From positions 1 through 24,966 of IMG/VR virus record IMGVR_UViG_3300005795_000002: a stretch of 24,966 nucleotides of DNA. One strand, written 5' to 3'. Position 1 is the first letter of the stretch. The number at the start of each line of letters is the position of its first letter. The notes under the pieces are model-generated. The model had not been told where the DNA came from and searched no databases. It saw only the letters and a list, made by a program, of their open reading frames with translations. The translations under genes and the position numbers were made by a program. The DNA comes from a virus. Positions 5,978 through 22,176 of the stretch are shown here, piece after piece.

Positions 5978-5989
5978 TCGTTTACTCCG

Positions 5990-14779: not shown

Positions 14780-14854
14780 TGGCACGCCCTGTAGGAATCG
14801 AACCCACATCAGGCGGGTAGAAACCGCCTGCTCTTTCCATTGAGCTAAGGGCGC
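14780..14854 (-). tRNA. tRNA-Arg (UCU)
   Basis: 75 bases including an encoded CCA. The acceptor stem GCGCCCT pairs with AGGGCGT; the anticodon stem GGCGG/CCGCC holds the loop TTTCTAC with anticodon TCT; the T-arm has GTTCGATTC. It reads AGA (and AGG), rare codons in GC-rich hosts. The 5' end is one base after the CCA of tRNA-Ser. Confidence 0.9.
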
Positions 14855-14855
14855 A

Positions 14856-14943
14856 TGGCGGGCAATGCAGGATTCGAACCTGCGGGGCGTCACCGCCCTA
14901 CGGGTTAGCAACCCGCTGCTTTCGGCCTCTCAGCCAATTGCCC
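14856..14943 (-). tRNA. tRNA-Ser (GCU)
   Basis: 88 bases including CCA. The acceptor stem GGGCAAT pairs with ATTGCCC; anticodon loop TTGCTAA with anticodon GCT; a long variable arm (TAGGGCGGTGACGCCCC) typical of class II serine tRNAs; T-arm GGTTCGAATCC. It reads AGC and AGU. Separated from tRNA-Arg by a single base, so both must come from one precursor. Confidence 0.9.
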
Positions 14944-14951
14944 CTGGAAAT

Positions 14952-15140
14952 CTACTTTTCGGCATCGGCCAACTGACTTTCAATGCAATCAAACTCTTCC
15001 TGAGTAAGGCGGCCGTAGGCCAATCCAGGAGGCAATTCAATCACCCTGTCCCCAGAGCGCAATGTTCCATCAGCCAGGGAGAATTCCCACCCCTGCGGGA
15101 CGCGCAGGCAGCGCCCGCGCTCGTCGAAAATCTCGATCAT
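14952..15140 (-). CDS. Unknown 62-residue protein between tRNA genes
   Basis: 62 residues from the ATG at 15140 (MIEIFDERGRCLRVPQGWEF). AGAGG lies nine bases upstream; a GTG two codons earlier would be too close to it. The N-terminal half is beta-like (IEIFDERG..LRVPQGWEFSLADG..LRSGDRVIELPPG), the C-terminal half an acidic helix (TQEEFDCIESQLADAEK). No known domain is recognised. It lies between tRNA-Gly and tRNA-Ser on the same strand, with 8 bases to tRNA-Ser, so its mRNA is part of the tRNA precursor and would be cut by tRNA processing. Confidence 0.6.
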   Translation of the reverse strand: MIEIFDERGRCLRVPQGWEFSLADGTLRSGDRVIELPPGLAYGRLTQEEFDCIESQLADAEK

Positions 15141-15172
15141 TCTCACCGCCCTCTTTTGCAGGGGTCGCCAAT

Positions 15173-15246
15173 TGGAGCGGGCTGCGGGGTTCGAACCCGC
15201 GTAGGCGGCTTGGAAGGCCGCAGCCTGACCACTCGGCCAAGCCCGC
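15173..15246 (-). tRNA. tRNA-Gly (UCC)
   Basis: 74 bases including CCA. Acceptor GCGGGCT pairs with AGCCCGC; D-arm region TTGGCCGAGTGGTCAGGC; anticodon stem GCGGC/GCCGC with loop CTTCCAA and anticodon TCC; T-arm GGGTTCGAACCCC. It reads GGA and GGG, the less used glycine codons in GC-rich bacteria. First of the three tRNA genes in the late transcript. Confidence 0.9.
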
Positions 15247-19325: not shown

Positions 19326-19623
19326 ATTGGCCGCTCCACTCGACAAACGGAATGCGAACGGCGGTATGGAACAAGGCGGCGGCTGCGGCGTTATGGTCCA
19401 GTTCTGCGCGGCTGGAGATCCCGCACATGTCTCGCACGTATCGCGCCGCGTACTGGCTAGGGGGCACGCCCTCGGGGGCGGCGCCGATGCGGGAGACTAC
19501 CCACCGCTGAAACTTCGCGCCGTTGCACATCATTGCAGCCGTGCGCGACAGCGCCGCCCCCTTACGCTCCGTGGACGGGACACGCGCCCGCACGGGTACA
19601 CCCGATGTTCCGCGCTGGATCAT
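19315..19623 (-). CDS. Unknown phage protein (102 residues)
   Basis: 102 residues, ATG at 19623 in an ATGA overlap with the CII gene. A basic start (GTSGVPVRARVPSTERKG) precedes a helical domain with the run PSQYAARYVRDMCGISSRAE, then LDHNAAAAALFHTAVRIPFVEW. Short phage proteins ending in a similar 'SRxELD...A..F....R.PFxEW' stretch are familiar to me from early regions of lambdoid phages, but I cannot name the family or a function. The coding frame is well supported by its overlaps on both sides. Confidence 0.65.
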   Translation of the reverse strand: MIQRGTSGVPVRARVPSTERKGAALSRTAAMMCNGAKFQRWVVSRIGAAPEGVPPSQYAARYVRDMCGISSRAELDHNAAAAALFHTAVRIPFVEWSGQYVA

Positions 19624-20063
19624 TCTTCGGCCATCCCGCTCAGACGATTCGCAACACTCGCCACAGCCTCCATGACCACGCGTCCAGCCGCGGTGACGCG
19701 TGCCACCTCCTGCTGGTCCACGCCGCCATCGGCCAGGGCGTCGTACACCTCATGACCAAACTTGCCGTGGGCGACCATCAGGCCGGCAACCTGTTCCAGC
19801 ACGGAAATGTCGCTTTCGCCACATGCCTCCGGAGCCTTCACCAGCAGATAGCCGTTGCTGTGCGCGAAGGCGGCCAAGATCCGAGGATCGCCCGTCATGC
19901 GAACAATGCGATCCGCCTCGGCAAGCGTCAGGTGGTGCGTGTTGTTGTTGGGGTTGACCTTGTTGCGCAGGACGGCCGCCGAAATGCCAACCAACGGCCC
20001 CAATGACTCGCTCCCGCCCTTGTACTCATGCACCGTCAAATCGGCCGCAGTGGTGATGTTCAT
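19620..20063 (-). CDS. CII-like regulator (CP76 family)
   Basis: 147 residues, ATG at 20063 with AGGAA upstream. The N-terminal half is a helix-turn-helix with the family's hallmark LGPLVGISAAVLRNKVNPNN then HHLTLAEADRIVRMTGDPRI, in which the phage regulator lies down as a Cro/CI-type fold; the C-terminal half is helical, probably for oligomerisation. CP76/CII proteins steer the lysis-lysogeny choice by activating repressor and integrase promoters. It stands behind the Cro-like gene as lambda cII does. A CII-dependent promoter was not found with confidence. Confidence 0.85.
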   Translation of the reverse strand: MNITTAADLTVHEYKGGSESLGPLVGISAAVLRNKVNPNNNTHHLTLAEADRIVRMTGDPRILAAFAHSNGYLLVKAPEACGESDISVLEQVAGLMVAHGKFGHEVYDALADGGVDQQEVARVTAAGRVVMEAVASVANRLSGMAEE

Positions 20064-20131: not shown

Positions 20132-20305
20132 TCAAACATCGAGCGGGCCAATCTGGACCCTGTCGTCCGGTTCAGCCGGCGCTGAGGGTGGCGCAACGTC
20201 GGCGGGCGCTTCATCTGGAACGTTGAAGAACCAGCGCGCCTCTTCTGGCGCCGGACGATGCAAGGCAAGGCGAGCGCCGAACGTCATGGGGGCTGCGTTA
20301 CGCAT
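20132..20305 (-). CDS. Unknown 57-residue protein between cro and cII
   Basis: Translated by me from the ATG at 20305, which has AGGAG seven bases upstream and lies inside the end of the Cro-like gene. The sequence starts MRNAAPMTFGARLALHRPAP and continues with EEARWFFNVP before an acidic Pro/Ala-rich tail ending QIGPLDV. No domain recognised. The good ribosome binding site and tight overlap support expression. It is followed by a 68-base gap up to the CII start. Confidence 0.6.
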   Translation of the reverse strand: MRNAAPMTFGARLALHRPAPEEARWFFNVPDEAPADVAPPSAPAEPDDRVQIGPLDV

Positions 20306-20573
20306 GGGGAGTCTCCTGTTGAGCGGACCGCAATGCGCCCTGATCGCAGTGGTCTGACAATTCGGGCCAAATGCGCCACCAGTCGTCAGGTCGGAGCGCG
20401 CTTCGCGCCACTTTCCCGCCCGTTCCGCGCTCGATATCCACACAGCGCTCGGGGGAAATGGGTGAGAGGCCGGAAGCCATCTGCGATAGGTAGGAGGGCG
20501 AGACACCAATTGCTTTCGCAAGGGCTGCGGCCGTGCCACGTGGGCTGATCGAGATATAGGTCTTGAGGTCCAT
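20298..20573 (-). CDS. Cro-like repressor (YdaS-type helix-turn-helix)
   Basis: 91 residues from the ATG at 20573 (MDLKTYISISPRGTAAALAK). A GTG seven codons upstream lies inside the operator and is less likely. Residues about 14-45 form the helix-turn-helix (GTAAALAKAIGVSPSYLSQM, then SPISPERCVDIER), and RPDDWWRIWPEL is typical of the Cro/YdaS group. It is the first gene from PR and divergent from cI, the position of lambda Cro. The predicted mRNA start lies within a few bases of the ATG, so translation may be almost leaderless. Confidence 0.85.
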   Translation of the reverse strand: MDLKTYISISPRGTAAALAKAIGVSPSYLSQMASGLSPISPERCVDIERGTGGKVARSALRPDDWWRIWPELSDHCDQGALRSAQQETPHA

Positions 20574-20580
20574 ACCCAAG

Positions 20581-20638
20581 AGTTTAGTTAGCACTAAACC
20601 GTAAGGTCAAGTGTTTACTAATTTAGTGTCCTATAAAC
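20581..20638. promoter_or_regulatory. OR region: PR promoter with operators O1, O2 (O3)
   Basis: PR reads on the minus strand: TTGACC (20610-20605), 18-base spacer, TAAACT (20586-20581). Operators of 7-4-7 form: O1 GTTTAGT-TAGC-ACTAAAC (20582-20599, perfect dyad, over the -10), O2 GTCAAGT-GTTT-ACTAATT (20606-20623, over the -35) and a weaker O3 ATTTAGT-GTCC-TATAAAC (20621-20638, over the cI promoter). O1 and O2 centres are 24 bp apart. Confidence 0.75.
20632..20637 (+). promoter_or_regulatory. PRM -10 element for cI
   Basis: TATAAA at 20632-20637 with no good -35, as in the activator-dependent lambda PRM. Transcription would start at about 20644, two bases before the cI ATG, and there is no Shine-Dalgarno, so a leaderless cI mRNA is predicted, as known for lambda. 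O2 upstream is placed where a bound repressor could touch polymerase. Confidence 0.5.
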
Positions 20639-20645
20639 TTTCGCC

Positions 20646-21671
20646 ATGACCACCCAAGAAATCCGACGGGCGAATCTCCGTGCCTGGGTCCAGCAGAATG
20701 GAACCCCTAGCAAGGAGAAGAGCTACTTCTCGCAAGTCCTCTCCGGCACCGCCCCCCTCGGGGAGCGTGCCGCGCGTCGCCTTGAAAAGGACTATCGGAT
20801 GGGTGAAGGCTTCTTGGACACGCCCCAGGGCGACTCGCCCGTAATCCCGGAGGCACCGCCACCCGCCCCTTGGCCTTTCGCGACTATTCAAGAAGCCGAC
20901 ATACGCGCCTTACCGGCAAGCCAGCTGAGCGCTCTGGAAGGTGCCATGGCGCTTGCAATCGCTCAGATGGGGCTGGGGATGGCTGTCGCCCCGCCTTCGT
21001 CTTCTCGCCCGCAGGCTGCAACTCGTGGCGGCCTGGTGGACATGGATGCCGCTGATGATCCGTTTCCTATGCGCATCGGCGGACTACCTGCTGCTCCATG
21101 GGAAGGTGGCAAAACCACCCTCCAGGCGGAGTATGACAACAAGGTTCGAATCAGCACCAAAACCGGCGTCATCGCCAATGTTGGCCCAGGAGAACCACAC
21201 GCGGCGAACGATAAGTTCGAGAAGGTTCCCGAGATGGCCGACGTGCGTCTGGCAGCCGGCGACGGCATAGAAAACTTAGCGGAAGAAGAAACCGGAACGG
21301 TTCAGTTCCGGCGGTCCTTCCTGCGGTCGGTTGGCGCCGGCGCAGGCAAAGCCCGTGTTGTGTATGCCAAGGGCGACAGCATGGAGCCAATCATCCGCGA
21401 TGGTGCGGCCTTGTTGGTTGTGCCGAATGAGAACCTCACCTTGCAGGATGTCGCCGCAGGCGGGGTGTACGCCATCAACTATGACGGCAAGATGATCGTA
21501 AAGACCGTGACGCAGGATCGACTGACGAAACGCTGGGTTGCGCGTTCATTCAATCCAGCATATCCGGACATTCCGCTAGAAAATGGCGCTCCAGTCCGCG
21601 TACTTGGACAAGTCGTGTGGGCGGGAACTCGCCTGCGCGACAACGAATCGGGCCAGTGGACGCGTTCATAG
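20646..21671 (+). CDS. CI-type repressor with S24 (LexA-like) peptidase domain
   Basis: 341 residues, ATG at 20646. The N-terminal 60 residues are a helix-turn-helix DNA-binding domain (EIRRANLRAWVQQNGTPSKE, then YFSQVLSGTAPLGERAARRL), followed by a long linker and from about 200 an S24 peptidase domain: cleavage pair A204-G205 in RLAAGDGIEN, catalytic serine S245 in AKGDSMEPII and catalytic lysine K286 in KMIVKTV. RecA-stimulated self-cleavage would induce the prophage after DNA damage. It is longer than lambda CI (237) because of the linker at about 60-200. It is divergent from the Cro-like gene and flanked by operators on both sides. Confidence 0.93.
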   Translation: MTTQEIRRANLRAWVQQNGTPSKEKSYFSQVLSGTAPLGERAARRLEKDYRMGEGFLDTPQGDSPVIPEAPPPAPWPFATIQEADIRALPASQLSALEGAMALAIAQMGLGMAVAPPSSSRPQAATRGGLVDMDAADDPFPMRIGGLPAAPWEGGKTTLQAEYDNKVRISTKTGVIANVGPGEPHAANDKFEKVPEMADVRLAAGDGIENLAEEETGTVQFRRSFLRSVGAGAGKARVVYAKGDSMEPIIRDGAALLVVPNENLTLQDVAAGGVYAINYDGKMIVKTVTQDRLTKRWVARSFNPAYPDIPLENGAPVRVLGQVVWAGTRLRDNESGQWTRS

Positions 21672-21693
21672 AGTCCCAGCCCTCAGAGCCAAT

Positions 21694-21718
21694 AGCCACC
21701 TTCGGGTGGCTTTTTTTT
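21694..21718 (+). terminator. Terminator of the cI gene
   Basis: AGCCACC-TTCG-GGTGGCT (21694-21711) followed directly by more T residues up to 21718. A perfect 7-bp stem with a TTCG loop and U8 tract; it isolates cI transcription from the PL operon that starts 100 bases further on. Confidence 0.9.
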
Positions 21719-21770
21719 CGCCCCTACGTCCCGGACCTGCCCTGTGAGCGCCATCCGCGCTCAAGTGCAA

Positions 21771-21812
21771 GTTTAGTTTTTACTTGACGTTAAGTTTAGT
21801 GTTTACTAATAT
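21771..21812 (+). promoter_or_regulatory. OL region: PL promoter with two operators
   Basis: TTGACG (21784-21789), 17-base spacer, TAATAT (21807-21812). Operators: GTTTAGT-TTTT-ACTTGAC (21771-21788, over the -35) and GTTTAGT-GTTT-ACTAATA (21794-21811, over the -10), centres 23 bp apart. The half-site ACTTGAC includes the -35 core in both PL and PR, and the two promoters align almost base for base. It drives the plus-strand left operon. Confidence 0.78.
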
Positions 21813-21818
21813 CCTCTT

Positions 21819-22176
21819 TAACGCAGCTTTGTCTGCACGCAGCACCCCACGGACCCGCAGCCAGCAATCAGGGCATCGCCTTAAGCGGGAGACGTCACCG
21901 CCACAAAGTCGGACTGGGGAAGGCGAGCATCGCTCCTTAAAAACCAGTCAGACCCAACCGCCGCCCCACATCGGGGCCGCGCGCGGGCGCGCCCAGTTCC
22001 ACGTAGGTGGCGCGAAACAGCAACCGGGTGCCACCGCTGCGGAGACCAACGCAAGCGAAGCACTGAAAGTGGAGACAGGCCGGATAGACGGCAGAGAAAC
22101 GCCTGGTACTCGACCAGGCGGTTTCGGCCAGCGCCGCGTGCGGCGCTTACCGAAGCCAACCAGAGAGGAAACCATC
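21819..22176 (+). other. Long structured untranslated leader of the PL operon
   Basis: About 360 bases without a supported gene; the frame open across it has no ribosome binding site before 22177. It contains several stems: GGTGGCGC/GTGCCACC (about 22010-22045), CGCCTGGT-ACTCG-ACCAGGCG (22100-22120) and AGCGCCG-CGTG-CGGCGCT (22130-22147) extended by TTCGG/CCGAA (22123-22127 with 22150-22154). The last ends 12 bases before the AGAGAGG of the first gene. Roles as antitermination RNA or expression control are possible. Confidence 0.5.

Follow-up and report, generated by a model that had tools for sequence, protein, structure and literature searches.

A probable lambda-like immunity switch with PaaR2-type operators in a temperate phage or prophage of the Achromobacter/Bordetella group

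The DNA analyzed here (hereafter, the window) is the whole 24,966-nucleotide stretch of the IMG/VR virus record IMGVR_UViG_3300005795_000002. In the window, a cI repressor gene (20646-21671, plus strand; 341 aa) diverges from a cro-like gene of the YdaS family (20301-20573, minus strand, with an alternative GTG start at 20594; PF15943, E 8e-15), downstream of which lies a cII-like gene of the Phage_CP76 family (19620-20063, minus strand; PF06892, 1.5e-35; phrog_101). An Rfam search further located three tRNA genes at 14783-15246 on the minus strand. The CI protein consists of a PaaR2-type DNA-binding domain (residues 1-58), a long linker, and an S24 self-cleaving domain (about residues 200-325; PF00717). 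The AlphaFold2 model of CI placed N-terminal helices at residues 3-18, 25-33, and 40-49 with moderate confidence, without helix 2 of a standard helix-turn-helix. An assembly or frameshift artefact was ruled out as the origin of this short motif, which is common to PaaR2, whose structure is solved, and to all proteins of class A among the DNA-binding domain classes described below. Structural comparison by Foldseek revealed the PaaR2 N-terminal domain as the closest solved structure to the CI DNA-binding domain (rmsd 1.0 A, 55% identity), and in a phmmer search PaaR2 was the sole match to the first 59 CI residues (3.9e-15). The CI C-terminal domain, in turn, was matched by Foldseek to lambda CI (1.6e-6) and LexA, and across 34 sequences the self-cleavage residues A204, S245, and K286 are invariant, with G205 nearly so. 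CI thus carries the Ala-Gly cleavage site and the catalytic Ser and Lys of a Lambda/LexA-type self-cleaving repressor; its cleavage is predicted, and the conservation of Ala204-Gly205, Ser245, and Lys286 makes SOS induction likely.

The original prediction placed five 18-bp operators with GTTTAGT/ACTAAAC half-sites on the two sides of cI, and our analysis found all five to be real and at the proposed positions. Scored over the 14 fixed positions of GTTTAGT-N4-ACTAAAC, with no strand assigned to the sites, OR1 (20582-20599) is a perfect palindrome with 0 mismatches, OR2 (20606-20623) has 4 mismatches, OR3 (20621-20638) has 3, and OL2 (21771-21788) and OL1 (21794-21811) have 2 each; both halves are exact only in OR1, and neither is exact in OR2. 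OR2 and OR3 share 3 bp. The promoters, read from the sequence, are PR (20581-20610, minus strand), with TTGACC at 20610-20605 and TAAACT at 20586-20581 separated by 18 bp, and PL (21784-21812, plus strand), with TTGACG at 21784-21789 and TAATAT at 21807-21812 separated by 17 bp. The proposal that they are near copies, each lying under sites of the same 18-bp type, is borne out by an alignment in which 25 of 31 positions are identical with one gap, which corresponds to the 1-bp difference between PR and PL in promoter spacer (18 versus 17 bp) and in operator spacing (24 versus 23 bp). In both promoters, the -35 core is contained in an ACTTGAC half-site (in OL2 at PL and, as GTCAAGT, in OR2 at PR), while the second site, OR1 or OL1, respectively, covers the -10. 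These operator spacings amount to about 2.2-2.3 turns, and the earlier wording of close to two helix turns was inexact. OR3 covers the -10 (TATAAA, 20632-20637, plus strand) of the cI promoter PRM, in which, likewise on reading the sequence, a good -35 is absent. This PRM -10 stops 8 nt short of the cI ATG, and the cI mRNA is predicted to be leaderless. The cro start similarly lies about 7 nt past the PR -10 (20573-20586, minus strand) with no clear ribosome site, as for cI, and both mRNAs may therefore be leaderless.

Intergenic stretches of the window are richer in AT than the remainder, which would be compatible with the sites being chance AT-rich repeats of intergenic DNA. Against this reading, 5 matches with ≤3 mismatches were identified in the window, compared with 0.14 expected from dinucleotide-preserving shuffles of the whole window; four of these are operator sites, and one is a stray at 5980. 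Composition-matched shuffles of the two intergenic stretches yielded three OR sites in 1 of 5000 cases and two good OL sites in 0 of 5000. Moreover, in 14 close relatives (CI 82-95% identical; one short contig stops before PL), the operator sites, including the poorly matching OR2, are letter-for-letter identical wherever the DNA is present, the OR offsets from the cI ATG are fixed, and the PL sites are kept as an unbroken pair. The 4-bp center of OR1 varies among relatives (TAGC, GAGA, GAGG, AAGA, and GAGT), and the flanks and the stretch between cI and OL2 vary freely, the latter ranging from about 58 to 103 bp. A host-genome scan for the motif, set beforehand as a check, covered Achromobacter animicus and A. 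kerstersii (6.1 and 7.0 Mb) and returned, at ≤2 mismatches, only the prophage OR1, OL1, and OL2 together with one stray. These results, along with the class matching presented below, rule out a chance origin of the sites, a reading that we consider extremely improbable. It could also be argued that only OR1, OL1, and OL2 are operators and that the two weak OR repeats, which contain the PR -35 and the PRM -10, are conserved for these overlapping promoter elements. Yet in other PaaR2-type phages the third site is better and occupies the same place (e.g. ATTTAGA-N4-ACTAAAC, 2 mismatches), and two or three sites lie upstream of cI in most other classes too; we therefore regard a three-operator arrangement as unlikely and retain all five sites as operators.

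The operator had been proposed as a new sequence, a claim that did not hold. In CP-933P, a cryptic prophage of E. coli O157:H7, the roles of CI, Cro, and CII are played by PaaR2, YdaS, and YdaT, respectively, and gel shift and footprint experiments established that PaaR2 and YdaS bind 18-bp inverted repeats with the consensus GTTTAGTAA (PMC8630535). This consensus is the same 7-4-7 palindrome as the window sites, it lies within the PaaR2 and YdaS footprints, and the DNA-binding domain of the window CI is a PaaR2 homologue. In that prophage, PL933P has the -35 and -10 of PR933P, PaaR2 and YdaS repress both PR and PL, a low dose of PaaR2 activates PRM, and the paaR2 mRNA is leaderless (PMC8630535). 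The window shares with it a homologous CI DNA-binding domain with a short helix-turn-helix, a YdaS-family Cro, GTTTAGT palindromes at PR/PRM between cI and cro and again at PL, and promoter elements common to PR and PL. Its cI transcript, as predicted from the sequence, would likewise be leaderless. The two systems differ in several respects. The window CI has a long linker and an S24 domain, whereas PaaR2 is a 15-kDa protein that lacks S24, so that cooperativity and looping cannot be transferred from PaaR2 to the window CI. The window CII belongs to the CP76 rather than the YdaT family, and three repeats at OR, with two more at OL, stand against the four equally spaced repeats of CP-933P, to which the three correspond. 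Nor does the window cI, encoding 341 aa with S24 and separated from OL2 by only about 100 bp, lie in an operon of the paaR2-paaA2-parE2 type; no toxin-antitoxin pair adjoins it. The operator is thus already known, and what differs here is the self-cleaving repressor tail.

The association of domain and operator extends beyond these two systems. GTTTAGT-type sites were found upstream of cI in 14 more phages in which a PaaR2-type domain is joined to a different C-terminal part, and 12 of these phages carry a further site or pair of this type downstream of cI; in one of the 14, Escherichia phage Evi, the first 58 residues of the domain match the PDB PaaR2 sequence. A scan of IMG/VR by the DNA motif alone identified 119 loci; a PaaR2-type domain lay 54-67 bp from the motif in 12 of them and at 1.3-2.1 kb in another 6. 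Separately, the phage contigs L145, L178, and L176 carry five, six, and two perfect AGTTTAGT-N4-ACTAAACT palindromes, respectively, spaced along their length, and a PaaR2-type domain was not found on these contigs.

Comparison of about 80 relatives that have the same CI linker and S24 tail revealed at least 15 classes of DNA-binding domain (loci L006-L025 and L044-L113), and nearly every class has its own palindromes upstream of cI. Class motifs were picked by eye from these upstream sites, and every motif was then searched in every locus downstream of cI. Class-matched OL pairs were recovered in ten classes (A, B, C, D, E, H, I, K, N, and O; 56 loci, which are not independent of one another), and the only off-class matches were those of the E motif in four H loci, the E and H motifs being nearly the same. 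With adjusted motifs, OL pairs were also found in class G (4/4) and class K (4/5), giving 11 classes with matched sites in all; for classes F, L, and M, a search out to 5 kb with the spacings tried detected no OL pair, and that of J is weak. The PL layout, in which an OL pair covers the -35 and -10, recurs in other operator classes with spacings of 23-25 bp. On a quick tree of the C-terminal domain, 29 class changes are needed, and on well-supported branches classes B and C each have a minimum of 7, class D of 5, and class E of 3. The Bordetella avium phages IFTN1-8 have the same linker and S24 C-terminal domain at 65% identity but other DNA-binding domains (classes L and K); their operators were not described, and their lysogens were reported to lack superinfection immunity (PMC10269795). 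Our search of the literature on Achromobacter CI operators and modular repressor swaps found nothing direct. In several other classes, the third operator extends into the cI ATG. At the PL of L241, L242, and L264, direct repeats ATGCTAGTTTTTCTTG occupy the place of palindromes, and a further operator class may thus be asymmetric.

Cro also changes with class, so that class matching alone cannot separate CI from Cro. This covariation would fit a reading in which the sites are primarily operators of the YdaS-like Cro, while CI recognizes other, overlapping pseudosymmetric sequences at the same place. It would also agree with CP-933P, where the PaaR2 and YdaS footprints overlap, two kinds of repeat are present, and the question of which protein touches which sequence was left open (PMC8630535). 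However, PaaR2 protects the entire 78-bp stretch (PMC8630535), the palindromes accompany the PaaR2-type CI domain in the 14 other PaaR2-type phages, in which the CI domains were compared, and it is simpler to suppose that both proteins, like those of lambda, bind the same sites. We therefore judge a primarily Cro-specific role to be distinctly improbable and favor shared sites for CI and Cro.

Altogether, the original view of a lambda-like OR/OL switch stands: cI and cro diverge across OR, a separate PL carries OL sites of the same sequence, and this arrangement is kept in relatives and, with swapped sequences, in ten further operator classes. We are highly confident that the locus is a lambda-like immunity switch with PaaR2-type operators belonging to a temperate phage or prophage of the Achromobacter/Bordetella group. 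This reading is based on the observed site positions, their conservation, the gene families, the promoter sequences, and the co-inheritance of repressor class and operator class. We infer binding by the window CI and Cro, a filling order, and induction, as follows. CI dimers on OR1 and OR2 would close PR and, with it, cro, cII, and the replication genes, while other CI dimers on OL1 and OL2 would close PL. CI on OR2 would probably aid its own weak promoter, PRM, the lack of a good -35 there fitting activation by CI at OR2, as reported at low PaaR2 levels (PMC8630535). OR3, which overlaps both OR2 and the PRM -10, would serve Cro or excess CI in turning PRM off, and upon DNA damage, RecA-aided self-cleavage of CI would open PR and PL. 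In lambda, OR and OL lie about 2.4 kb apart. The window resembles lambda in its layout, in the number and order of its OR sites, and in the relationship of its S24 domain to the C-terminal domain of lambda CI, but differs in its operator sequence, its overlapping OR2 and OR3, its two OL sites, and its OR-OL distance of 1.2 kb, over which repressor looping may be possible.

A conserved leader RNA of ~85 nt (21842-21928, plus strand) forms the start of the PL transcript and is followed by a boxA-like site (CGCTCCTTAAAAA, 21931-21943, plus strand; CGCTCTTTAACAA in most relatives), which likewise follows the leader in most relatives. The leader is common to several operator classes and is thus not part of the operator set. 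The proposed fold has four nested helices, P1 (21845-21849/21915-21919), P2 (21854-21858/21885-21889), P3 (21860-21862/21872-21874), and P5 (21898-21900/21910-21912), and a crossing helix, P4 (21877-21881/21921-21925), all on the plus strand, that would create a pseudoknot. In this fold, 98.1% of cells pair, and two-sided changes occur in 15 cells, compared with a shuffled mean of 4.7 (0/500 as high), with a covariation of 0.106 versus 0.035. Three leader sequence types were distinguished, and types II and III, read by eye, have the same layout in other letters (CCTC/GAGG and TCCCA/TGGGA). P4 is invariant within type I, and its support is therefore its complementarity in the three types rather than covariation within a type. 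A fully nested fold was considered and not preferred: the version given by RNAalifold retains P2, P3, and the greater part of P1, with no pairing of the P4 strands. The leader is probably pseudoknotted. A covariance model recovered types II and III at 1e-5 to 5e-3 and never found more than one copy in a locus, always downstream of cI and on its strand; with filters off, it detected no second copy on the PR transcript in the window. A known Rfam family was also rejected, as nothing reached the gathering score and a permissive E-value gave chance-level matches only. The HK022 putL antitermination RNA consists of two stem-loops and has a second copy, putR (PMC9378689). The window element resembles putL in being structured, in its similar length, and in its position immediately after PL, but differs in its predicted pseudoknot, its subsequent boxA-like site, and its single copy per locus. 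We consider the PL leader a candidate new antitermination element.

Taken as a whole, these findings raise a broader and more tentative proposal, to which we give slightly less than even weight: that, in Achromobacter/Bordetella phages, the DNA-binding domain and its operators at OR and the distant PL form a portable set, swapped many times onto a single self-cleaving C-terminal domain to yield a natural library of no fewer than 15 repressor/operator pairs, and that the new pseudoknotted PL RNA with boxA lets RNA polymerase pass terminators. Since the operator has already been mapped by footprinting, published biochemistry can be used to interpret the switch. The PaaR2-type domain and its operator are found in phages of Achromobacter, Klebsiella, and Escherichia, joined there to dissimilar C-terminal parts. 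The relatives, in which one C-terminal domain is combined with at least 15 DNA-binding domains and with matched sites at both promoters, constitute a natural test of repressor-operator specificity. They could be used for studying the choice of DNA by helix-turn-helix proteins and as a source of independent repressors for gene circuits.
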